Shown here: positions 28,935 through 38,342 of the stretch, one piece after another | Layout of the letters: the number at the start of each line of letters is the position of its first letter | How positions within the stretch are numbered: the stretch's first letter is position 1 | Assembly (NCBI RefSeq): GCF_945956965.1 | Contig: NZ_CAMFJS010000006.1 | Coordinates: forward strand, 62,001-126,000 | DNA length: 64,000 nucleotides | Reading direction: 5' to 3' | Source of the DNA: an uncultured Roseateles sp. | GTDB lineage: Bacteria; Pseudomonadota; Gammaproteobacteria; Burkholderiales; Burkholderiaceae_C | The notes under the pieces: model-generated | Database searches by the model: none | Told to the model about the DNA's origin: nothing | Seen by the model: the letters and a program-made list of their open reading frames with translations, nothing else | Made by a program: the position numbers and the translations under genes

Positions 28935-29630
28935 TCAGGGCTTCGCGCGCGGCGCGGCCGCCTTGGGCTTGCGTGTTGATGCCGCCTTGGTCGCTGGTGG
29001 CGCCGCCATCTCAGCGCGTGCGCTCAAGCCATCAAAGCAGGTGCTCAGCACGAGTTCGATGATCTCTTCATCGCTGTACTGGCCGCCCATTTTCAGGAAC
29101 TCCAGCACCGGGTCGCAGGCCCGCGCGAACAAGGTGTAGAGCACGGCGATGGGGGGCAGCTTGGGGTTCAGGCTGCCTTCGGCTTGCGCCGCTTCGATCC
29201 ATTCGCCCAGGCGCTCGCTCACTTCCATCAGCCCGTCCATGTAGGGGCGGCAGCCCATCAAGGCGGTGCGCAGGCTGGAGTTCTGGCTCGGCAAGGCCGG
29301 CATTTCGCCCACCAGTTTCAGGCCCATGGTCCAGGCCACCACGGCGCGCAGCTGCGCCATCGGGGCGGCCTCGGCCGGCAACTCGGCCAGAAAGGTCTGT
29401 GCCCGCTGCATCACCGAGGCCATGGCCGCTGCGGCCAGGTCTTCTTTGCTGGCGAAGTGCTTGTACAAGCTGGCTTTGGCGATGCCGACCTCGGCCGCCA
29501 CCTCATCCACCGTCATGGCTTCGAAGCCTTTTTCCGCCAACAGGCGGTTGACCACCTGAATGATGGCGCCCTCCCGGGCTTGCAGCATCTGCGCTTTGAA
29601 AGAGAGTTTGGGGGCGAGGCGGGTAAGCAT
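28935..29630 (-). CDS. TetR-family transcriptional regulator
   Basis: A 231-residue repressor-type protein. The N-terminal helix-turn-helix (about 18-64) reads VDEVAAEVGIAKASLYKHFASKEDL, the TetR signature being split here for brevity. A helical ligand domain follows, and the last 25 residues are an Ala/Lys/Pro-rich tail. It is transcribed away from the eight-gene oxidoreductase/fatty-acid operon across a 94-bp gap, the usual arrangement for a local TetR repressor of the divergent operon and itself. The start at 29628-29630 (MLTRLAPKLS) fits; the preceding codons fall in the A/T-rich promoter. Confidence 0.9.
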   Translation of the reverse strand: MLTRLAPKLSFKAQMLQAREGAIIQVVNRLLAEKGFEAMTVDEVAAEVGIAKASLYKHFASKEDLAAAAMASVMQRAQTFLAELPAEAAPMAQLRAVVAWTMGLKLVGEMPALPSQNSSLRTALMGCRPYMDGLMEVSERLGEWIEAAQAEGSLNPKLPPIAVLYTLFARACDPVLEFLKMGGQYSDEEIIELVLSTCFDGLSARAEMAAPPATKAASTRKPKAAAPRAKP

Positions 29631-29672
29631 GGCGAAATTGTAGTCGAGTCGGTAAAGAATCGAATGCGCTGG

Positions 29673-29691
29673 CTGTAAAAATACTATACAG
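29673..29691. promoter_or_regulatory. Candidate TetR operator in the divergent promoter
   Basis: The 19-bp site CTGTA-N9-TACAG lies midway between the regulator and the oxidoreductase operon, in the only strongly A/T-rich patch of the area. A TACTAT -10-like hexamer overlaps it. Spacing fits an operator for a TetR dimer, but binding is inferred. Confidence 0.55.
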
Positions 29692-29724
29692 TTCACAAAA
29701 GACTGATTAGTAATAAATTTAACT

Positions 29725-31068
29725 ATGCCGCTCAAAGTCGCCATCATTGGTTCAGGAATCTCAGGCCTGGCCGCCGCGCACGCGCTCTCGGCCCAGGGCG
29801 GCGCGGTGCAGCTGACCCTGCTGGAGGCAGGGGCCTACTTCGGCGGCCACGCCAACACCGTGGACATCACTCTGCCCACGCCGCAGGGCCCGGTGACCCA
29901 TGGGGTGGACACCGGCTTTCTGGTGCTCAATGAGCGCACTTACCCGAACTTGATCGGCTTGCTGAAGCAGCTGGGCGTGGCCAGTGCCAAGTCCGAGATG
30001 TCTTTTTCGGTGCAGTCCGAGCGCGCGGCCGGCCAGGCGCCGCTGGAATGGGGCGGCAGCAATTTGGCCTCTTTGTTTGCCCAGCGTGGCAATCTGTTCA
30101 GCCCGCGCTTCTGGGGCATGTTGAAAGATCTGCTGCGCTTCAATGCCTTGTGCACCCGCATTGCCGAGCAAGGCACCGAGCAGCAGCTGAGCCAGACCCT
30201 GGGTGACTTTCTGTGCGAGCAGCGCTTCGGCGACGCCTTTTGCGAGGACTATCTGCTGCCCATGATGGCCTGCATCTGGAGCTGCCCAACCCGCCAAATG
30301 CTGGCCTTCCCGGTGGCCACCATGCTGCGCTTTTGCCATAACCACGGCCTGCTGCAGATCAGCGGCCGGCCGCAGTGGTACACGGTGCAGGGCGGCTCCA
30401 AGCACTATGTTCAGAAGATCGTGGCCGGCATTGCCGACAAGCGCCTGAACACCCCGGTGCGCCGCATCACCCGCCTGAGCGGGCCAAGCGGCGGGGTGCT
30501 CTTGAGCCTGGACAGTGGCACCGAGCGTTTTGACAAAGTCATCATCGCTACCCATTCCGACCAGGCCCTGGCCTTGCTGGCCGAACCCACCGCCGCGGAA
30601 CGCTCCACGCTAGGCAAGATCCGCTACCAAAGCAATAAGGCCGTCTTGCATACCGATGCCAGCGTGCTGCCGCGCCATCAATCGGCCTGGGCGGCGTGGA
30701 ACTACGAGCGCAGCGCGGTGCAAGCCGAGGGCGCAAAGGGTGTTGAAGCGACCGAGCAGCGTGTTTGCCTGCACTACTACCTCAACCGCTTGCAGCCGCT
30801 GCCCTGGACGCAGCCGGTGCTGGTGTCACTCAACCCCCTGCGGCCCATCGACCCGACCAAGATCTTGGGCGAGTTTGACTATGCCCACCCGGTGCTGGAT
30901 CTGGCCGCCGTGGCCGCGCAGGCCCGCATGCCGCATTTGCAGGGCTGGGAGCATTGCTACTTCGCCGGCGCCTGGATGGGCTACGGCTTCCATGAAGACG
31001 GGCTCAAGGCTGGCTTGGCCGCAGCCAAGCAATTGCTGCACGATTGCGCCGTGGCGGTGTACGCATGA
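29725..31068 (+). CDS. FAD-dependent amine-oxidase-like oxidoreductase (COG2907 type)
   Basis: A 447-residue flavoprotein. The N-terminal dinucleotide fold reads VAIIGSGISGLAAAHALSAQ, followed by a substrate domain and a closing FAD segment (CYFAGAWMGYGFHEDGLKAG). It belongs to the predicted NAD/FAD-binding family found beside DUF1365 and cyclopropane-synthase-like genes in many Proteobacteria. Relatives in such clusters are linked to desaturation or oxidation of methylated fatty acids. The precise reaction here is unproven. It is the first gene of the operon; its stop overlaps the DUF1365 start by four bases. Confidence 0.9.
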   Translation: MPLKVAIIGSGISGLAAAHALSAQGGAVQLTLLEAGAYFGGHANTVDITLPTPQGPVTHGVDTGFLVLNERTYPNLIGLLKQLGVASAKSEMSFSVQSERAAGQAPLEWGGSNLASLFAQRGNLFSPRFWGMLKDLLRFNALCTRIAEQGTEQQLSQTLGDFLCEQRFGDAFCEDYLLPMMACIWSCPTRQMLAFPVATMLRFCHNHGLLQISGRPQWYTVQGGSKHYVQKIVAGIADKRLNTPVRRITRLSGPSGGVLLSLDSGTERFDKVIIATHSDQALALLAEPTAAERSTLGKIRYQSNKAVLHTDASVLPRHQSAWAAWNYERSAVQAEGAKGVEATEQRVCLHYYLNRLQPLPWTQPVLVSLNPLRPIDPTKILGEFDYAHPVLDLAAVAAQARMPHLQGWEHCYFAGAWMGYGFHEDGLKAGLAAAKQLLHDCAVAVYA

Positions 31069-31919
31069 ACACCGGCAGCCCTGTCGCCATGTTGGGCTTT
31101 GGCCAAGTGCGCCACACCCGCTTGCGGCCGGTGCTGCATGCCTTTGCCTACCCCAGCTACTTCCTGATGCTGCCGCTGCGCAGCTTGAAGCGCCAGGCGG
31201 CCCAAGCCGAGGGCGAAGGCAAGAAGGGCTGGCGCATCAACCAGCCCGGCCTGCTGAGCTTTTTTGAGGCCGACCATGGCGATGGCCGCCCGCTGGCGCA
31301 AGGCGGCGCCCTGGCCTGGCTGGACGAGTTGCTGCAGCGCGAAGGCATTCACGACGCTACCGGCGAAGCCTGGTTGCACTGCTTCCCGCGCGTGCTGGGC
31401 TACACCTTCAAGCCGGTGAGCTTCTGGTACTGCCACCGTGCCGCTGACGACCAAGGCGGCGCGTTGCGCGCCATCGTGGTGGAGGTGAACAACACCTTCG
31501 GCGAGCGCCATTGCTATTTGCTCGACGCCCCGCGCTGGGGTGCGGAACTGAGGGCGGACAAGGTCTTCCACGTCTCGCCCTTCTTCAAGGTGGAGGGCCA
31601 CTACCGCTTCCGCTTCATGCGCAGCCAGGATCGCTGCGTCGCCCGCATCGACCTGTGCGAGGGCGACGGTGCTGGCTCTGACGAGCAGCCCGTGCTGCTG
31701 CAGACCAGCCTGAGCGGCCGGCTGGAAGCGCTGAACCCGCAGACCCTGCGCCGTGCCTTTTGGCGCTACCCCGTCATGACCCTGGGTGTGCTGGTGCGCA
31801 TCCATCTGCACGCCTGGCAGCTCTGGCGCAAGAAGAAGCTGCCCTTCTTCAGCAAGCCCGCAGCGCCCCAAGCTTTTGTATCGCGTCAGCTCTCGCCCAA
31901 CCCTGCCGAACCCAGTTGA
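31065..31919 (+). CDS. DUF1365-family protein
   Basis: A 284-residue soluble protein of DUF1365 (COG3496), whose members almost always lie between a COG2907 flavoprotein and a cyclopropane-synthase-like methyltransferase. Characteristic parts are RHTRLRPVLHAFAYPSYFLM, FNPVSFWY-like FKPVSFWYC, VVEVNNTFGERHCYLL and a C-terminal WQLWRKKK region. Biochemical role is unknown; co-occurrence suggests a part in modifying membrane fatty acids. ATG 31065 overlaps the previous stop (ATGA). Confidence 0.9.
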   Translation: MNTGSPVAMLGFGQVRHTRLRPVLHAFAYPSYFLMLPLRSLKRQAAQAEGEGKKGWRINQPGLLSFFEADHGDGRPLAQGGALAWLDELLQREGIHDATGEAWLHCFPRVLGYTFKPVSFWYCHRAADDQGGALRAIVVEVNNTFGERHCYLLDAPRWGAELRADKVFHVSPFFKVEGHYRFRFMRSQDRCVARIDLCEGDGAGSDEQPVLLQTSLSGRLEALNPQTLRRAFWRYPVMTLGVLVRIHLHAWQLWRKKKLPFFSKPAAPQAFVSRQLSPNPAEPS

Positions 31920-31931
31920 ACCTTGCCGAGC

Positions 31932-33191
31932 ATGAACACCACCACCCTCCCCACACGCACCCACGCCCTGCCTAGCGATGCTCCCGCTGCCGCCCGCAGC
32001 GCCCTGCGTCTGCTGCAGAAAATTCAACATGGCGAGCTGAGCTTGCAGTTGCCCGATGGCACGCTGCGGCGCTTCGGTGAACACCCGCAGCAAAACGCCC
32101 TGGCCGGCCACCACTACCCCTGCGCCCATCTGGTGCTGCATAACTGGCGGGTGTTTGGTGCGGCGCTGAAGTCGGGCGACATCGGCTTTGCCGAGTCCTA
32201 TATCGCCGGCGACTGGAGCACGCCTGACCTGACCGAGTTGATCAAGCTCTTCTCGGTCAACCGCCAGGCGATTGATGCGGTGATCTTCGGCAGCTGGGTC
32301 GGCCGCTTGTTCTACCGCGTCAAGCATCTGTTGCAGCACAACAGCCGCGCCAATAGCCGCAAGAACATCCATGCGCATTACGACCTGGGCAATGCGTTCT
32401 ACAAGCTCTGGCTGGACGAGAGCATGAACTACTCCAGCGCCTGGTTCGAGGGCGACCTGAGCCGGCCGCTGCGCCCGGCCCAGGACGCCAAGGTGCGCCG
32501 CGCCCTGCGCATGGCCCAGGTCAAGCCGGGCGACCGGGTGCTGGAAATCGGCTGCGGCTGGGGCGCTTTGGCCGAGGCGGCCAGCCAGGAATTCGGGGCC
32601 AGCGTGGTGGGCGTGACCCTGAGCACCGAGCAGCTCAAGTACGCCCAGGCCCGCGTGCCAGATCGGGCCGATCTGCGCCTGCAGGACTATCGCGACATTC
32701 GCGACGAGCCCTTCGACGCCATCTGCTCCATCGAAATGGTCGAGGCCGTGGGCCAGCGCTATTGGCCGGTCTATTTTCAAACCGTGGCCCGCTTGCTCAA
32801 GCCCGGCGGCCAGGCCTGCGTGCAGAGCATCGTCATCGATGACAAGCTGTTTGAGCGTTACCTCAGCTCCACCGATTTCATCCAGCAATACATCTTCCCC
32901 GGCGGCTGCCTGCCCAGCCCGAGTGAGTTCCGCCGCCAGGCCACCGCCGCGGGCTTGGAGGTGGTGGACGAGTTTTCCTTCGGCCCGGACTATGCCGAGA
33001 CCCTGCGGCGCTGGCGTGATGCCTTCCTGGCGCGCCAGGCCGAAGTCGCAGCGCTGGGCTTCGACGAGCGCTTCATGCGCATCTGGGAGTTCTACCTGGC
33101 CTATTGCGAGGCCGCCTTCGATACCGGCGACATCAGCCTGACCCAGTTCACCTTGCGCAAGCCCGCTGCGCACGCAAAGGCTAGGTCATGA
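31932..33191 (+). CDS. Cyclopropane-fatty-acyl-phospholipid synthase-like methyltransferase
   Basis: A 419-residue SAM-dependent enzyme of the CFA family. The N-terminal domain (about 1-130) is followed by the methyltransferase fold with SAM motif VLEIGCGWGALAEAA, HYDLGNAFYKLWLDESMNYS upstream of it, SIEMVEAVG and YIFPGGCLPS near the lipid site. CFA enzymes methylate double bonds of phospholipid acyl chains. Placed with COG2907 and DUF1365 genes, a member of the group that makes mid-chain methyl-branched or furan fatty acids is as likely as a cyclopropane maker. ATG 31932 is preferred over a TTG nine bases earlier. Confidence 0.93.
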   Translation: MNTTTLPTRTHALPSDAPAAARSALRLLQKIQHGELSLQLPDGTLRRFGEHPQQNALAGHHYPCAHLVLHNWRVFGAALKSGDIGFAESYIAGDWSTPDLTELIKLFSVNRQAIDAVIFGSWVGRLFYRVKHLLQHNSRANSRKNIHAHYDLGNAFYKLWLDESMNYSSAWFEGDLSRPLRPAQDAKVRRALRMAQVKPGDRVLEIGCGWGALAEAASQEFGASVVGVTLSTEQLKYAQARVPDRADLRLQDYRDIRDEPFDAICSIEMVEAVGQRYWPVYFQTVARLLKPGGQACVQSIVIDDKLFERYLSSTDFIQQYIFPGGCLPSPSEFRRQATAAGLEVVDEFSFGPDYAETLRRWRDAFLARQAEVAALGFDERFMRIWEFYLAYCEAAFDTGDISLTQFTLRKPAAHAKARS

Positions 33192-33748
33192 AACGCCGCG
33201 ATGCTGCGGCGCTGATGCTGGCGGCCGTGGCCATGCCGCTGCGCGCCAGCGAGAGCGGCGCTGCCACCCAGACGCCTGAGCTGCGAAGCGCCTTGCCCCA
33301 GGCCGAGCTGGCCGGGCAAGCCACGCTGAGCTTCTGGGGCTTCGAGGTTTACCGCGCCCGCCTGTGGGTGGCGCCGGGCTTCAAGAGCAGCGATTACGCC
33401 AAACATAACTTCGCACTGGAGCTGACCTATCTGCGCGACTTCAGCGGCGCCGACATTGCTAGCCGCTCGATCAAAGAGATGCGCCGCCAAGGCCCCATCG
33501 CCGCCGCACAGGAAGCCGGCTGGGAAGCGCAGATGCGCACGCTCTTCCCCGATGTGAAGACCAATCAGCGCCTCACCGGCATTCATCAGGTGGGCCGCGG
33601 CGCGCAATTCTTGTACAACGGCCAGCCCCTGGGCGAGATCCGCGACCCGATCTTTGCCAAGCTCTTCTTCGGCATCTGGCTGGCGCCACAAACTTCGGAG
33701 CCCCGCATGCGCAGCAGCTTGCTGGGCGCAGCCGCCGAGGCGCCATGA
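33188..33748 (+). CDS. Chalcone-isomerase-like periplasmic protein
   Basis: A 186-residue protein with a short signal-like N-terminus (MKRRDAAALMLAAVAMPLRA) and the bacterial chalcone-isomerase-like fold. Signatures are LSFWGFEVYRARLWVAPGF, ALELTYLRDFSGADIASRS and DPIFAKLFFGIWL. Bacterial members lack evidence for flavonoid chemistry and are thought to bind or isomerise fatty acids; plant relatives (FAP proteins) bind fatty acids. It overlaps both neighbours by four bases, so tight co-expression is clear. Confidence 0.85.
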   Translation: MKRRDAAALMLAAVAMPLRASESGAATQTPELRSALPQAELAGQATLSFWGFEVYRARLWVAPGFKSSDYAKHNFALELTYLRDFSGADIASRSIKEMRRQGPIAAAQEAGWEAQMRTLFPDVKTNQRLTGIHQVGRGAQFLYNGQPLGEIRDPIFAKLFFGIWLAPQTSEPRMRSSLLGAAAEAP

Positions 33749-34998
33749 ACACCGCAGGCTTGAGTTGGCGGGACGGCCTGCGCTACGGCCTGCTGGGCCT
33801 GCCCTTGGCCTTCTGCGCCCTGCCGCTCTATATGCTGATGCCCAATCTGTATGCGCGCGAATGGGGCGTTCCTCTTGGCGCGCTGGGCGCGCTGCTCTTG
33901 GCCACACGCTTGCTCGATGCGCTGGTGGACCCCTGGTTGGGGCGCTGGAGCGACCGCTTGTTCGGGCGCTCGCGCCGCGCCGTGCTGGGCTTTGGCGCGG
34001 CGGCTGCCGCCTTGCTGGCGCTGAGTTTTGGCCTGCTCTTCATGCCGCAGGTGCGCGGTGCCACCGCGCTGCTGGTCTGGGCTGGGGCCTGCTTGCTGGG
34101 CACTTATCTGGCCTATAGCGCGCTGATGGTGGTGCACCAATCCTGGGGCGCGCGCCTGGGCGGCGGCGAGGCTAGGCAAGGCCATATCGTGGCCTGGCGT
34201 GAAGGTCTGGGCCTCTTGGGCGTTTTGCTTGCCGCGGCCACCCCGGCGCTGCTGGGGGAGCCGGCCTTGGTTGCCCTGCTGGTGGGCGGCCTGGCGCTGG
34301 GCTTTTGGGCCTGGACGCGGGCGCTTTATCCGGCAGCGCAAGCTCAATCACAGGTGCGGGCGACGGATGCCTGGCGACCCTGGCGCCAAGCCGCCTTCCG
34401 CCGCTTGCTGCTGGTCTATTTGCTCAACGGCATTGCCAGCGCCATTCCGGCCACCTTGGTGCTGTTCTTTGTGCAAGATCGCCTGCAGGGCGATGCGGCT
34501 TGGCAGTCGGCCAGCTTGGGCCTTTACTTTGTTTGCGCCGCGATTTCCATGCCGCTGTGGCTGCGCCTGGTGGTGCGGCTGGGCCTGCGGCGCAGCTGGT
34601 TGCTCGGCATGTTGCTGTCGATCGCGGTCTTTCTCGGCGCGGCGCAGCTGGGTGCGGGGGATATGCCGGCCTTCTTGCTGGTCTGTGCCTTGTCAGGCCT
34701 GGCCCTGGGCAGCGATCTCACCATGCCCAGCGCCTTGCTGGCCGGCGTGATCCACGCGGCTGGCGAGCGCGGGCGCTCAGAAGGCAGCTACTTCGGCTGG
34801 TGGAACTTCGCCAGCAAGCTCAATCTGGCCCTGGCCGCGGGCCTGACGCTGCCCCTGCTGGCCTGGCTGGGCTATCAGCCCGGTACGCGCGACCCCGAGG
34901 CTTTGCAGATGCTCAGCCTGGCCTATTGCCTGCTGCCTTGCTTGCTCAAGGCGCTGGCGGCGCTGGCGCTGCGCTTTTCATTCACGTCCAACACTTAA
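33745..34998 (+). CDS. MFS transporter (GPH/MelB-like)
   Basis: A 417-residue inner-membrane carrier with about twelve hydrophobic helices. The loop ATRLLDALVDPWLGRWSDR matches the glycoside-pentoside-hexuronide symporter group (COG2211). The ATG overlaps the preceding stop. Sugar import seems unlikely here; members in similar clusters have been suggested to move lipids or their precursors, though I know of no direct proof. Substrate unknown. Confidence 0.87.
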   Translation: MNTAGLSWRDGLRYGLLGLPLAFCALPLYMLMPNLYAREWGVPLGALGALLLATRLLDALVDPWLGRWSDRLFGRSRRAVLGFGAAAAALLALSFGLLFMPQVRGATALLVWAGACLLGTYLAYSALMVVHQSWGARLGGGEARQGHIVAWREGLGLLGVLLAAATPALLGEPALVALLVGGLALGFWAWTRALYPAAQAQSQVRATDAWRPWRQAAFRRLLLVYLLNGIASAIPATLVLFFVQDRLQGDAAWQSASLGLYFVCAAISMPLWLRLVVRLGLRRSWLLGMLLSIAVFLGAAQLGAGDMPAFLLVCALSGLALGSDLTMPSALLAGVIHAAGERGRSEGSYFGWWNFASKLNLALAAGLTLPLLAWLGYQPGTRDPEALQMLSLAYCLLPCLLKALAALALRFSFTSNT

Positions 34999-35010
34999 GG
35001 CTTGCCCATC

Positions 35011-35544
35011 ATGAAACGACGCCATTGGCTCACGCTGCTGCTCACGGCCAGCTTGCTGCAAGGCTGCGGCAGCCCGCCGCCAGTCACCCACTACGCGCAG
35101 GAAAAGCCGCGCCTGGAATTGCGCGAGTACTTCAACGGCACGCTGGATGCCTACGGCATCTTCACCGACCGTTCGGGCCAAGTCGTCAAGCGCTTCACAG
35201 TGGTGATGAACTGCAGCTGGAATGGTGACCAAGGCGTGTTGGACGAGTTGTTCACCTACTCCGACGGCAGCACCCAGCGCCGCGTCTGGCGCCTGCAACG
35301 CCAGGCCGATGGCCGCTACACGGGCAGTGCCGACGATGTGATCGGCACCGCCCAGGGCCAGCAAAGCGGCAATGCCTTCCAGTGGGCCTACACCCTGGCC
35401 CTGCCGGTGGATGGCCGGGTGATAGAGGTGCAGTTCGATGACTGGATGTATCTGATGGATCAGCGGGTGATGCTGAACAAGGCCGCCATGAGCAAATGGG
35501 GCGTCCATCTGGGCGAAGTCACGCTGTCCTTCGTCAAACGCTGA
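35011..35544 (+). CDS. DUF3833-family lipoprotein
   Basis: A 177-residue predicted lipoprotein. The signal peptide ends in a lipobox LLQGC (Cys at about residue 18), so it should be lipidated and held at the outer or inner membrane. The mature part matches DUF3833, a family found with the DUF1365/CFA cluster: LELREYFNGTLDAYGIFTD, MNCSWNGDQGVLDE and LPVDGRVIEVQFDDWMYLMD. No catalytic motif is evident. ATG 35011 gives the MKRRHWLTLLL signal. Confidence 0.87.
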   Translation: MKRRHWLTLLLTASLLQGCGSPPPVTHYAQEKPRLELREYFNGTLDAYGIFTDRSGQVVKRFTVVMNCSWNGDQGVLDELFTYSDGSTQRRVWRLQRQADGRYTGSADDVIGTAQGQQSGNAFQWAYTLALPVDGRVIEVQFDDWMYLMDQRVMLNKAAMSKWGVHLGEVTLSFVKR

Positions 35545-35564
35545 ACGACTAGCAGCGCAGAGCG

Positions 35565-36356
35565 ATGTCAAGCAACCCTCGAATCCACGATTGGGCCGGC
35601 CGCCGGGTCTGGCTGGTGGGCGCCTCCACCGGCATTGGCCGCGCCACGGCCTCGGCCCTGCACGCTGCTGGCGCGCGGGTGATTGTGTCGGCGCGGGGTG
35701 CTGGCGCGCTGGCTGAGTTCGTCAGCGTCCATCCGGGTGCCGAGGCGCTGGCGCTGGATGTGACCGACCCGCAAGCCATGCAGGCGACCGTGGCCCAAGT
35801 GCTGGCCGGCGGCCCGCTGGACTGGGTGGTTTACTGCGCCGGTCACTACCGGGCGATGGAGGCCGATCAGCTCGACCTGCCCGATCTGCTGCGCCATAAC
35901 GAGGTCAACTACCTCGGCGCGCTCTACCTGTTGGATGCCTTGCTGCCGCCACTGCTGGCGCAGCCGGTCAACCCCGCCACCGGTCAGCGCGCCCACATCA
36001 GCTTGATGGCCAGTGTGGCCGGTTACCGCGGCCTGCCCAAGAGTCTGGCTTACGGGCCCACCAAGGCGGCCTTGATCAATCTGGCCGAAACGCTTTACCT
36101 GGATTTGCATCGCCAGGGTGTGGCGGTGTCGGTGATCAACCCTGGCTTTGTCGACACCCCGCTGACGGCGCAGAATGATTTCAAAATGCCCGCGCTGATC
36201 AGCCCGGCCCAGGCCGCCCGCGCGATTTTGCGCGGCTGGGCGCGCGGCGCGTTTGAGATTCACTTTCCGCGCCGCTTCACCGTTTGGCTCAAGCTGCTGC
36301 AGCTCTTGCCTTATCCCGCTTACTTCGCCATCACCCGGCGCTTGAATCGCCCTTGA
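35565..36356 (+). CDS. Short-chain dehydrogenase/reductase
   Basis: A 263-residue classical SDR. The cofactor site reads VGASTGIGRATASAL (GxxxGxG), with the YGPTKAAL active site (Tyr-x-x-x-Lys) and NPGFVDTPLTA after it. A C-terminal hydrophobic stretch (VWLKLLQLLPYPAYFAI) may touch the membrane, which fits a lipid substrate. It is the seventh gene of the operon, 20 bp after the DUF3833 gene. Confidence 0.93.
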   Translation: MSSNPRIHDWAGRRVWLVGASTGIGRATASALHAAGARVIVSARGAGALAEFVSVHPGAEALALDVTDPQAMQATVAQVLAGGPLDWVVYCAGHYRAMEADQLDLPDLLRHNEVNYLGALYLLDALLPPLLAQPVNPATGQRAHISLMASVAGYRGLPKSLAYGPTKAALINLAETLYLDLHRQGVAVSVINPGFVDTPLTAQNDFKMPALISPAQAARAILRGWARGAFEIHFPRRFTVWLKLLQLLPYPAYFAITRRLNRP

Positions 36357-36365
36357 GAGTCAGCC

Positions 36366-36833
36366 ATGACGAGCGCAAACGTATCTACTGCCACCACCAC
36401 TGCCAACACCGCGGCCATCGACGCCATCGTGCACTTCTTTGAAACCCTCAGCCCCGCACAAGTCGAGCAGCTGGGCGAGATCTATGCACCTAACGCTGAA
36501 TTCAAAGACCCCTTCAACAGCGTTCGCGGCGTGCCGGCGATCCAGGCGATTTTTCGCCATATGTTCGTCAATCTGGAGTCGCCGCACTTTGTCATCACCG
36601 AGCGCATCGTCGACGGCGCGCAATGCTTTCTGGCCTGGGAGTTCCGCTTCCGCTTCAAGAGCTTCCTGCGCGAGCAGGAGCAGTGCATCATCGGCGGCTC
36701 GCAGCTGCGACTCGATGCGCAAGGCCGCATCACCGTGCACCGCGACTACTGGGACGCGGCCGAAGAGCTGTACGAAAGAATCCCCGTGTTGGGCGGCCTG
36801 ATGCGCTGGCTCAAGCGGCGCGTGAATTCCTGA
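36366..36833 (+). CDS. NTF2-like (SnoaL-type) protein, last gene of the operon
   Basis: A 155-residue protein of the nuclear-transport-factor-2-like superfamily. It has a Thr/Ala-rich start, then IVHFFETLSPAQVEQLGEIY, FKDPFNSVRGVPAIQAIF, ITVHRDYWDAAEELYERIP and a basic C-terminus. Members of this exact type recur in DUF1365/CFA clusters and resemble small isomerases or binding proteins. It ends one base before the convergent HD-GYP stop codon, so the two transcription units run into each other. Confidence 0.87.
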   Translation: MTSANVSTATTTANTAAIDAIVHFFETLSPAQVEQLGEIYAPNAEFKDPFNSVRGVPAIQAIFRHMFVNLESPHFVITERIVDGAQCFLAWEFRFRFKSFLREQEQCIIGGSQLRLDAQGRITVHRDYWDAAEELYERIPVLGGLMRWLKRRVNS

Positions 36834-36834
36834 T

Positions 36835-37968
36835 TCAGTCTCCGCCGATCAGGCTGACGATGCGCTCATCGCTCAGGCGCATGGGCAAGGATTGCGCGGA
36901 GAGCAGCGCCACCACCGTGTGCTCGCTGCGAGCGCTGTCGCGGGTCAGCGGCTGCTTGCGTGACTCACCCTGCGCATTGGTCAGGGCGGCCACCACCGGG
37001 TGATAAGCCTTGGCGCCATTGCGCAGCACCACGCCAATCTCGCCCGAGGCCAGCTTGACCATGCAGCCCGGCGGGAAAATGCCGAAGGCCTTGATCAGCG
37101 CGGCAGCCAGCGGGCTGGAGGCGGCCATTTGCAAAATCTCGCGACCGGCTTGTTGGGCGCTCATGGCGGGGCGATTGCTGCGTGCGCTCAGGCGCGCGGT
37201 GTAGACATCGGCAAAGCGCAGCAGTTCCGCCAGCTCGCCAATATCGCTGCTGCCGCGCGGGTAGCCCGAGCCGTCGCTCAGCTCGTGGTGCTGCAGCACG
37301 GCTTCGAGCCAGTCGGAGTCGTCGATGCCGGCTTGGCTGAGCATCTCGGCCCCCTTCTCGGGGTGCTCGCGAATGGTCTCGCGCTGCAAATTGGTGAGGG
37401 CTGAGACCTGATGCGCCAAGCGTGCTTGCAGGTCCAGCATGGCCACATTCATGGTCAGTGCGGCTTGGAAGGCACGGCGCTGCTCGGCCTCGTTCCAGCC
37501 CAGGTAGCGGGCCGAGGCCAGGCAGGCGGTGGCGGCATGGATGGAGTGATTGACGCCGTAATGCCCGGCGCCGGCTTCGGGCTGACGCACCACTTGCGAC
37601 AAAGCCACATCGGGCGAGAGCTCGATCAGGCTGAGCAGATGGTCGGTGCAGTCATCCACCGCCGCAGCCAACTCGGCCACCGGCGCGCTGAGGGCTTGGC
37701 GCACCTGCTGCTTGCTATTGTCCCAATCGCTTGGCAAGCGCATCAGGCGCTGCGCCTTGGAGGCCGGGCGCGGCGCTTGCGCTGAGACGGCCAGCTCCTC
37801 GATCTCCACCAAGGCGCCGCGCTGGAACAGCTCGGTCAACTGCGCTTCATCGGCAATCACCTGGCCGCGCGCCAGCAAGAGCATATGGGCCGCGTCGCGC
37901 ACGCTGAAAGGCAGGGGTGCGCCGAGCACGATGCGATTCTTGACCGACGACAGTGAGCAAACTCGCAT
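36835..37968 (-). CDS. Degenerate HD-GYP-type protein
   Basis: A 377-residue cytoplasmic protein. The first 130 residues are a family-specific region. An HD-GYP-like domain (about 135-330) follows. Late motifs are kept: REHPEKGAEML (201-210), HHE (227-229) and DGSGYP (232-237). The HD dyad is not: where HDIGK should stand the protein reads MNVAML (173-178), so His and Asp are Met and Asn. Loss of these metal ligands should abolish cyclic di-GMP hydrolysis, and binding or signalling is more likely. The start ATG 37966-37968 is preferred, because upstream codons are Arg/Cys-rich and lie in a structured leader. Confidence 0.85.
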   Translation of the reverse strand: MRVCSLSSVKNRIVLGAPLPFSVRDAAHMLLLARGQVIADEAQLTELFQRGALVEIEELAVSAQAPRPASKAQRLMRLPSDWDNSKQQVRQALSAPVAELAAAVDDCTDHLLSLIELSPDVALSQVVRQPEAGAGHYGVNHSIHAATACLASARYLGWNEAEQRRAFQAALTMNVAMLDLQARLAHQVSALTNLQRETIREHPEKGAEMLSQAGIDDSDWLEAVLQHHELSDGSGYPRGSSDIGELAELLRFADVYTARLSARSNRPAMSAQQAGREILQMAASSPLAAALIKAFGIFPPGCMVKLASGEIGVVLRNGAKAYHPVVAALTNAQGESRKQPLTRDSARSEHTVVALLSAQSLPMRLSDERIVSLIGGD

Positions 37969-37998
37969 GGCACGCAGGGACCGGCTAAAGAAGGGTTG

Positions 37999-38051
37999 GT
38001 GACAGAGCGCTGCCTTCGCGCGAATGAAGGCAAGCTCGGGCGGTCTGTCAC
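37999..38051 (-). other. Nested hairpin in the leader of the HD-GYP gene
   Basis: Outer arms GTGACAGA/TCTGTCAC (37999-38006 and 38044-38051) enclose an inner hairpin TGCCTTC/GAAGGCA (38011-38017 and 38026-38032). All pairs are exact. The element would be transcribed 31-83 bases before the HD-GYP start codon. It is inside the 374-bp divergent gap between this gene and arsC, which holds no other supported gene. Confidence 0.5.
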
Positions 38052-38109
38052 GCCATCTTGTCGGGCAACAGGCCAAGTCCACCCGCTGACTGCGGCGGCA
38101 TCTCGCTGC

Positions 38110-38137
38110 ACATCGGCGGAAACTACGCCTAACTTGA
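38110..38137 (-). promoter_or_regulatory. Sigma-28-like promoter candidate for the HD-GYP gene
   Basis: The minus strand shows TCAAGTT, 13 bases, then GCCGATGT. The FliA consensus is TAAAGTTT-N11-GCCGATAA (equivalently N12 after AAGTT), so both hexamers fit but the spacing is one base long. An inverted repeat CGCCTAAC/GTTAGGTG (38126-38147) overlaps the -35 part. No motility gene is in the window, so this is tentative. Confidence 0.3.
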
Positions 38138-38342
38138 GGGTTAGGTGCGGGGCGAGTGTACGCGAGGGCGGTGAGCGCACGAAGTCGATCTGGGGTGGCG
38201 AAATTAGGGGGGTGTGGCACTGGAGGAAAATGGCGTGCATCAAAGGCAGCCGCATTCAGCTCAGCGCGGCTCGTGCCCCCGGCCCGCCGCGCTTGCCCGC
38301 AGCAAAAACCCATCTCAACCCTTCACGTCCCCCGCTTCCGCC

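Follow-up and report, generated by a model that had tools for sequence, protein, structure and literature searches.

Furan fatty acids are lipids tied to defence against light damage. In the cited literature, the bacterial genes for their synthesis belong to responses to singlet oxygen (through ChrR) or to light (through LitR). They are among the core targets of the ECF11 sigma-E/ChrR singlet-oxygen regulon (PMC6852236), and in Pseudomonas LitR proteins (PplR/PmlR) together with LOV proteins control a light-inducible cluster with ufaM, short-chain dehydrogenase/reductase (SDR) and FAD oxidoreductase genes (PMC9758184). Which switch, then, governs the eight-gene operon at positions 29725-36833 of the DNA studied here, upstream of which a TetR-family gene stands in divergent orientation? 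This DNA, referred to as the window, is a stretch of 64,000 nucleotides (nt) from an uncultured Roseateles sp. of the order Burkholderiales (contig NZ_CAMFJS010000006.1), whose genome is called the window genome. We consider it likely that this is a furan-fatty-acid operon held by the divergent TetR protein on two operators, and that it was acquired from another genus, displacing a LitR-linked operon.

An operon with homologs of the furan-fatty-acid enzymes

In Rhodobacter sphaeroides, UfaM, UfaD and UfaO together suffice for the production of a methylated furan fatty acid, and the homologs RPA2569-2571 of Rhodopseudomonas palustris can stand in for them (PMC7380195). The first three genes of the window operon, on the forward strand like the five that follow, encode a UfaD-like flavoprotein (29725-31068; Pfam Amino_oxidase/NAD_binding_8), by homology a fatty-acyl desaturase, a UfaO-like protein (31065-31919; Pfam DUF1365, 249 bits), by homology a furan-ring-forming oxygenase, and a probable UfaM-type S-adenosylmethionine (SAM) methyltransferase of the CMAS family (31932-33191; Pfam CMAS, 278 bits). 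The adjacent UfaD and UfaO homologs were identified by Pfam and blastp, and a profile search of the window genome found DUF1365 in a single copy. An initial annotation of this DNA, in which the first protein was named COG2907, had read the operon as one for lipid modification and had linked relatives of its first and third proteins to methylated or furan fatty acids. The lipid-modification reading is supported, and so is the kinship of the first two proteins with furan-fatty-acid enzymes, DUF1365 being a domain of UfaO (PMC7380195); the names then given agree with Pfam for all eight proteins.

DUF1365 is found in 120 of 250 genomes of the order, 111 of 150 of the family and 15 of 18 of the genus. 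A subset of the DUF1365 matches was taken as 140 stretches (L030-L169; L labels denote locus stretches and G labels genomes, G000 being the window genome). L133, a ChrR locus without ufaD, was dropped from all counts out of 139, 140 or 117, and genes were mapped by blastp around the other 139 loci, which with the window give 140 rows. The UfaD plus methyltransferase tree and the gene content served to delimit, by hand, a class B of 23 rows. It consists of two clades, one of 13 rows and another of 10, the latter nested among class A rows. Class A comprises the remaining 117 rows, window included. The full eight-gene set is present in 81 of the 117 class A rows, with the window counted and losses at contig ends scored as absences. 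None of the 23 class B rows has matches to the chalcone-isomerase-like, MFS, DUF3833 or SnoaL proteins of the window. The tight run described initially stands, with the open reading frames (ORFs) as placed and gaps of -4 to 20 bp, and its recurrence marks it as a conserved, ordinary unit of Burkholderiales and not the product of chance. That it might be a rare oddity is ruled out by the DUF1365 frequency and the gene mapping.

In the window methyltransferase, Ala and Gln replace two His residues of the solved cyclopropane synthases 5z9o and 6bqc (241 and 267 in the 6bqc chain). This pair is found in 140 of 141 aligned methyltransferases, the exception being L133, where the sole CMAS match belongs to another type. 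It is also present in the methyltransferase encoded beside ufaD/ufaO in Rhodopseudomonas pseudopalustris (L237). The bicarbonate-binding set of cyclopropane synthases, which we take to be Cys, Glu, His, Ile and Tyr and to include the second of these His residues and a Cys at a third compared position, is incomplete in the window protein: Cys is replaced by Ser and His by Gln, and Glu, Ile and Tyr are retained. The enzyme is probably UfaM-type and not a standard cyclopropane synthase, the label being drawn from comparison with the R. pseudopalustris protein. Taken together, these genes have the appearance of a furan-fatty-acid operon in its Burkholderiales form, with UfaD-like, UfaO-like and UfaM-type enzymes and five accessory genes.

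A divergent TetR gene and its predicted operators

The divergent gene (28935-29630, reverse strand), 94 bp from the operon, encodes a predicted repressor of 231 residues with a TetR_N domain (57 bits), as initially annotated. TetR relatives, 36-79% identical to that of the window, are encoded beside 24 further loci. Of the 117 class A rows, 25 have a linked TetR, 55 a MerR-type gene upstream, and 37 neither. The latter, called 'other', had no linked switch by the queries used within the stretch, and some of these stretches end near ufaD; L144 and L160, with a MerR gene behind the operon, are counted among them. TetR was never found together with MerR, ECF or ChrR matches at one locus. Distances among the TetR proteins correlate with those among the UfaD proteins (r = 0.92, n = 24, without L121, whose frame is short and which is also absent from the TetR alignment), and none of 2000 permutations reached this value.

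Two copies of an inverted motif, ACT-N4-AGT, lie between tetR and ufaD in the window: ACTATACAGT at 29683-29692 and ACTGATTAGT at 29702-29711, with starts 19 bp apart and both kept in the sister species. They surround a weak predicted sigma-70-like promoter (TTCACA-16-TAAATT, 29692-29719, forward strand, 9 of 12 positions matching), copy 1 reaching the predicted -35 and copy 2 falling between the predicted -35 and -10. Such a promoter would give a nearly leaderless ufaD messenger RNA starting at or beside the ATG; the absence of an evident ribosome-binding sequence before ufaD agrees with this. The operator guessed initially, at 29673-29691, overlaps copy 1, and the pair at 29683-29692 and 29702-29711 is the better supported one.

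Of the 25 TetR loci, 23 have the motif, either in the tetR-ufaD interval or next to tetR. The sites number 29, where shuffled sequences gave 1.3 on average and 5 at most. When 832 inverted 3-mer patterns were ranked, ACT-N4-AGT was the best (23/25); the next best reached 11, and the best in 30 shuffles 9/25. Chosen on 12 TetR loci, it was then met in 12 of the 13 others. Only 1 of 55 MerR loci carries it within 150 bp before ufaD. These distributions, with the linkage in 25 of 117 rows, support the earlier assignment of TetR as a local regulator. Eleven of the 37 'other' loci likewise have the motif no more than 300 bp from ufaD (shuffle mean 1.5, maximum 6), which suggests that a TetR encoded elsewhere in those genomes may act on them. 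These loci are L053, L057, L082, L093, L098, L114, L117, L118, L120, L134 and L160; in L046, L062 and others the motif stands slightly beyond 300 bp, and it is sometimes paired.

An AlphaFold2 model of the window TetR (mean predicted local distance difference test score 89.7) has FadR, AibR and DarR as nearest folds. The fold would be compatible with an acyl ligand, which is a guess: such neighbours are generic to TetR proteins and identities are around 20%, so the likeness does not settle the ligand.

LitR-like and ChrR-linked forms of the operon

According to the initial annotation, RpoE/ChrR is the usual switch of such operons. The comparison across genomes gave another picture: ECF plus ChrR adjoins none of the 117 class A operons, and the commonest regulator is a MerR protein of the LitR/CarH type (55/117). 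MerR_1 and B12-binding domains were found in 34 of 34 proteins scanned, which are those in the alignment. CarH proteins are marked by the signatures Wx9EH and E/DxHxxG, the latter starting the B12 motif (PMC8156234). Both are present in 46 of 49 MerR proteins, and in 40 of 49 the part that follows agrees too if its pattern is relaxed; we therefore call these proteins LitR/CarH-like. The motif counts cover 49 of the 55 MerR loci, L107, L115, L116, L124, L125 and L129 being left out.

These loci carry a palindrome of their own. Of 55 LitR-type loci, 33 have TTGTC-N3-GACAA in the 2.2 kb preceding ufaD; none of the 25 TetR, 37 'other' and 23 class B loci has it there, and after the ufaD start it was met once in 1.45 Mb. 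It is possibly the LitR operator. A longer form, TTTGTC-N3-GACAAA, stands near the LitR-like gene in L071, L041, L079, L058 and others. The Pseudomonas PplR consensus, with half-sites of the TGTACA type, was absent from the 49 LitR-side stretches. As judged by these motif distributions, the TetR and LitR forms each seem to bring their own operator. Upstream of ufaD, LitR-type operons (L047, L069, L070, L078 and others) have recurrent neighbours encoding glutathione peroxidase, a ferritin-like/desaturase-like protein and a photolyase-related protein, which fits a role in photo-oxidative stress.

The ECF plus ChrR pair adjoins 12 of the 139 sampled loci, all in class B. They are L030-L036, L038-L040, L066 and L126 (L037 is not among them); in these 12, matches to the chalcone-isomerase-like, MFS, DUF3833 and SnoaL proteins are absent, and 11 (all except L036) have a second gene resembling cyclopropane-fatty-acid synthase upstream. 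Above its curated cut-off, the ChrR profile TIGR02451 matched 2 of 250 genomes of the order; any match was obtained in 79 of 250, nearly all weak. A collection scan gave at least 585 confirmed matches, and the best 80 of these 585, mostly Alphaproteobacteria by title, were kept as named loci. Among these 80, ECF and ChrR are found in 43, of which 8 also have MFS and DUF3833, bearing out the resemblance to RpoE-ChrR clusters first pointed out. None of these 80 has a match to the window-type TetR.

The earlier description of the operon as lacking RpoE/ChrR fits the window genome. TIGR02451 gave no match there (Caulobacter served as positive control); one 149-residue frame has a Cupin_7 match only. 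No ECF11-like sigma factor was seen among the 22 sigma-70 region-4 stretches of the genome, and tblastn with a single 149-residue fragment as query gave at best 31% identity over 64 residues. On the TIGR02451 and sigma searches, a ChrR/ECF11 system encoded elsewhere in the window genome was rejected. The best LitR/CarH match in this genome (52 bits) covers the helix-turn-helix part only and belongs to a protein with neither Wx9EH nor ExHxxG; on this search, a LitR encoded elsewhere was likewise rejected. TTGTC-N3-GACAA is absent from the 64-kb window. Photosystem genes, present in 2 of 18 genomes of the genus, were not found in the window genome.

Two operons at two sites within the genus

Thirteen further DUF1365 loci of the genus were taken (L264-L276), and the region upstream of ufaD is visible in 11 of them. 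All 11 have a LitR-like gene, with the glutathione peroxidase gene gpx between it and ufaD, and a CorA-like neighbour is common to the 10 of 10 LitR loci compared for their flanks. The window operon lies elsewhere, between exonuclease III (exoIII) and HD-domain genes, and the sister species G396, which like the window genome lacks LitR, carries the TetR operon at the same exoIII-HD site, with a UfaD 97% identical. In genomes G262, G397 and G398, the operon is absent from this site. Conversely, at the genus site of the LitR operon, the window genome and G396 have the flanking genes and no operon gene was found; the 2.6 kb between the flanks hold a chemotaxis-receptor-like gene, as identified by Pfam on the window copy.

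The UfaD proteins of 12 further genus loci (the 11 with LitR seen and L268, which is truncated) are only 58.5-60.6% identical to that of the window, although identity between these genomes is about 91-97% for exonuclease III and the CorA-like protein. The UfaD tree groups the window and G396 with L048 and L123, which are TetR loci of other genera, and the 12 genus rows with MerR rows. Given two sites, two clades and a TetR operon close to those of other genera, the best reading would be a horizontal replacement of pathway and switch together in the ancestor of the window species and its sister. The TetR seems to stand in place of the LitR/CarH-like switch of the genus.

A leader RNA in relatives of the operon

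Just before ufaD, many relatives carry a structured leader of about 120 nt, composed of an outer stem, a variable hairpin, an inner stem and a U-rich tail. The inner-stem loop, of about 28 nt, is mostly pyrimidine and CCUCC-rich. The 21 loci behind the covariance model were picked because their 9-bp outer stem is exact, and this stem is therefore biased in them. The model finds leaders in 49 of 139 loci; all are in sense orientation and precede ufaD by 8-198 nt (for example L046:7235-7359 and, on the reverse strand, L053:10757-10884 and L057:10671-10798). They are present in 26 of 37 'other' and 23 of 55 MerR loci, and in none of the 24 TetR and 23 class B loci. Within the genus, 9 of the 11 LitR loci searched have one (L264-L267 and L269-L273; not L274 and L275), and the model found none in the window or in G396 (L183). 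The best 80 of the 585 confirmed matches gave one leader match (E = 0.54). The TetR-linked operons of the sample thus do without this RNA layer.

Covariation was assessed on 36 of the 37 matches outside the model (L264 was left out), which, being found by the model, lean to its structure and include 8 close relatives from the genus. Of 21 pairs, 17 change on both sides and 95.5% of cells pair; the score was 0.54, compared with 0.26 when shuffled and at most 0.15 when slid. With the one locus tried, no Rfam family matched the leader up to E = 1, and in the window none reached the gathering score. By these signs the leader is apparently an undescribed, covarying RNA. Its CCUCC-rich loops bring to mind the CcsR RNAs of Rhodobacter. 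The CcsR RNAs act in stress defence (PMC10253847, whose passages on them do not mention the CCUCC motif).

Accessory genes and the downstream neighbour

The last five genes encode a chalcone-isomerase-like protein (33188-33748; Chalcone_3, 40 bits) with an N-terminus signal-peptide-like by eye, an MFS_2 carrier (33745-34998; 163 bits), a DUF3833 lipoprotein with lipobox LLQGC (35011-35544; 235 bits), an SDR (35565-36356; Pfam adh_short) and, at the end of the operon, a SnoaL/NTF2-like protein (36366-36833; Pfam SnoaL_2). From ufaD to the MFS gene the junctions measure -4, 12, -4 and -4 bp, and those following it 12, 20 and 9 bp. Among Protein Data Bank sequences, no relative was found up to E = 1 for the chalcone-isomerase-like protein, no credible one for the MFS carrier and no useful one for the DUF1365 protein.

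The initial annotation suggested that the carrier, chalcone-isomerase-like and SDR proteins might lengthen the pathway and perhaps transport an acyl lipid. In R. sphaeroides, single deletions of RSP1087, RSP1088 and RSP1089, three of five operon genes, left the fatty-acid profile unchanged (PMC7380195). Judged from sizes and order only, these would be the MFS, DUF3833 and SDR genes. If so, the deletions weigh against a need for accessory genes in synthesis, and these are probably dispensable for it in Rhodobacter. As the accessory genes are nevertheless kept in most copies, they may point to a step after ring formation.

Downstream of the operon, the HD-domain gene is convergent. Its ORF (36835-38313) aligns to three near relatives of the genus only from residue 66, 110 or 114 onwards, and its match to G396 over residues 11-492 has internal stops; these features place the true start probably downstream of the called one.

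Proposed mechanism and alternative explanations

In the proposed pathway, the UfaM-type enzyme would methylate a monounsaturated chain on a membrane phospholipid, UfaD would add a second double bond, and UfaO would insert oxygen from O2, upon which the furan ring would close to give a methylated furan fatty acid. The five accessory proteins, two of them probably exported, would handle the product or a by-product. TetR bound to the two ACT-N4-AGT operators, about 20 bp apart, would cover the predicted promoter and hold the operon off until a ligand releases it and the operon is turned on. This TetR-linked version would have entered the ancestor of the window species and its sister from another genus, and replaced the LitR-linked operon kept elsewhere by most of the genus.

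Several observations weigh against this proposal. Ser in place of Cys, the third methyltransferase position, is common to only 119 of 141 sequences. ACT-N4-AGT was first spotted by eye in the same sequences, for which reason it was checked by the pattern ranking and the split sample. The closest TetR relative from another genus, L048, carries ACC-type variants in place of a strict copy. The motif is also met in 4 of 55 MerR loci at up to 300 bp from ufaD, as well as in 2 of the 49 intergenic stretches on the LitR side. The sigma-70-like promoter search found 2 in the region with 0.9 expected, which is near chance. In L121 and L163, TetR lies 0.8-1.6 kb from ufaD with other sequence between; L121 is rearranged, with TetR from about -1480 to -850 relative to ufaD and a chalcone-isomerase-like frame in the interval. 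Finally, a full LitR is encoded elsewhere in 5 of 25 TetR-linked genomes (G058, G133, G278, G387 and G134), so that light may still reach some such operons.

Three other explanations were weighed. The operon might make cyclopropane or merely methyl-branched lipids, the third enzyme being a cyclopropane synthase, since CMAS is its best Pfam family and cyclopropane synthases are its nearest solved sequences. On the two best cyclopropane-synthase equivalogs, however, it scores 251-259 bits where the cut-offs are 400 and 600, both His residues are replaced in nearly all copies and in the R. pseudopalustris protein, and UfaD and UfaO homologs accompany it in 139 of 139 loci. We find this explanation improbable. 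Much the same holds for the idea that TetR is an unrelated neighbour controlling only itself, with the operon constitutive or under a distant regulator. The 37 class A rows without linked TetR, upstream MerR or ECF-ChrR lend it some weight: LitR is rare in their genomes, with one full LitR and one further match of 180 bits among the 31 searched, so a known switch need not be linked to the operon. Yet TetR stands upstream of ufaD in 25 loci, which requires several separate events on the tree, co-varies closely with UfaD, and is common to the window, its sister species and the loci of other genera in one UfaD clade, with the motif in 23 of the 25; a bystander is therefore very unlikely.

The order of events could also be reversed, with TetR as the ancestral switch of the order and LitR as the newcomer, so that the pattern would record losses of TetR rather than gains. 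TetR rows are scattered over several places of the operon tree (8 label changes, at least 7 forced by starred branches), an alignable TetR is found throughout, and 11 of 37 loci without a linked TetR have TetR-type operators; an ancestral TetR with many losses is thus compatible with the data for the order as a whole. Within the genus, on the other hand, the two types occupy different chromosomal sites and different clades, which calls for replacement and not for the loss of one regulator. We regard TetR ancestry as unlikely, though more credible than the two preceding explanations.

If the operon is a TetR-controlled furan-fatty-acid operon, the same enzymes beside a TetR suggest a further input to the pathway, a signal other than light or singlet oxygen or only indirectly linked to them. 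It is conceivable, if rather doubtful, that TetR directly senses an acyl molecule derived from the membrane, such as an acyl-CoA that has been oxidised or methylated, and that synthesis is run on the state of the lipids instead. The same tentative proposal would have the enzymes travel in exchangeable cassettes, each with its own sensor and operator (ChrR-sigma, B12-type LitR or TetR, with the leader RNA in relatives), which replace one another between genera. The divergent TetR and its two predicted operators make the signal findable by a simple screen, and the genus offers a natural comparison, with near relatives having the LitR operon, the TetR operon or none.

Comparison with known systems

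A literature search covering few subscription papers found no paper on a TetR-controlled furan-fatty-acid operon, none whose title or first abstract lines connect TetR with DUF1365 or furan fatty acids, and none joining CarH with furan fatty acids. Among known folds, Bacillus FadR (3whc, with stearoyl-CoA) is one of the nearest to the window TetR model (TM-score 0.63); at 18% identity and with a fold generic to TetR proteins, it is no guide to the ligand.

The UfaD, UfaO and UfaM-type enzymes of the window are common to the Ufa systems of R. sphaeroides (RSP2144, RSP1091-1087) and R. palustris (RPA2569-2571). As in the window, the R. palustris methyltransferase gene lies beside those of the other two enzymes (compare L237), whereas R. 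sphaeroides keeps ufaM apart and its pathway is raised by loss of ChrR (PMC7380195). The window operon differs in forming a single eight-gene run, which adds chalcone-isomerase-like and SnoaL genes and the TetR. With the ECF11 sigma-E/ChrR regulon it shares the furan-fatty-acid genes, while no ChrR and no ECF11-like sigma factor was found in the window genome. The Pseudomonas LitR cluster resembles the window in having a DNA-binding repressor over furan-lipid genes (PMC9758184), as far as repression can be assumed for the window. There, however, a class II LitR acts with a LOV protein; the Burkholderiales MerR proteins mostly have both CarH motifs, and the window has neither system and a TetR instead. 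The enzymes are known, and the switch belongs to another family.

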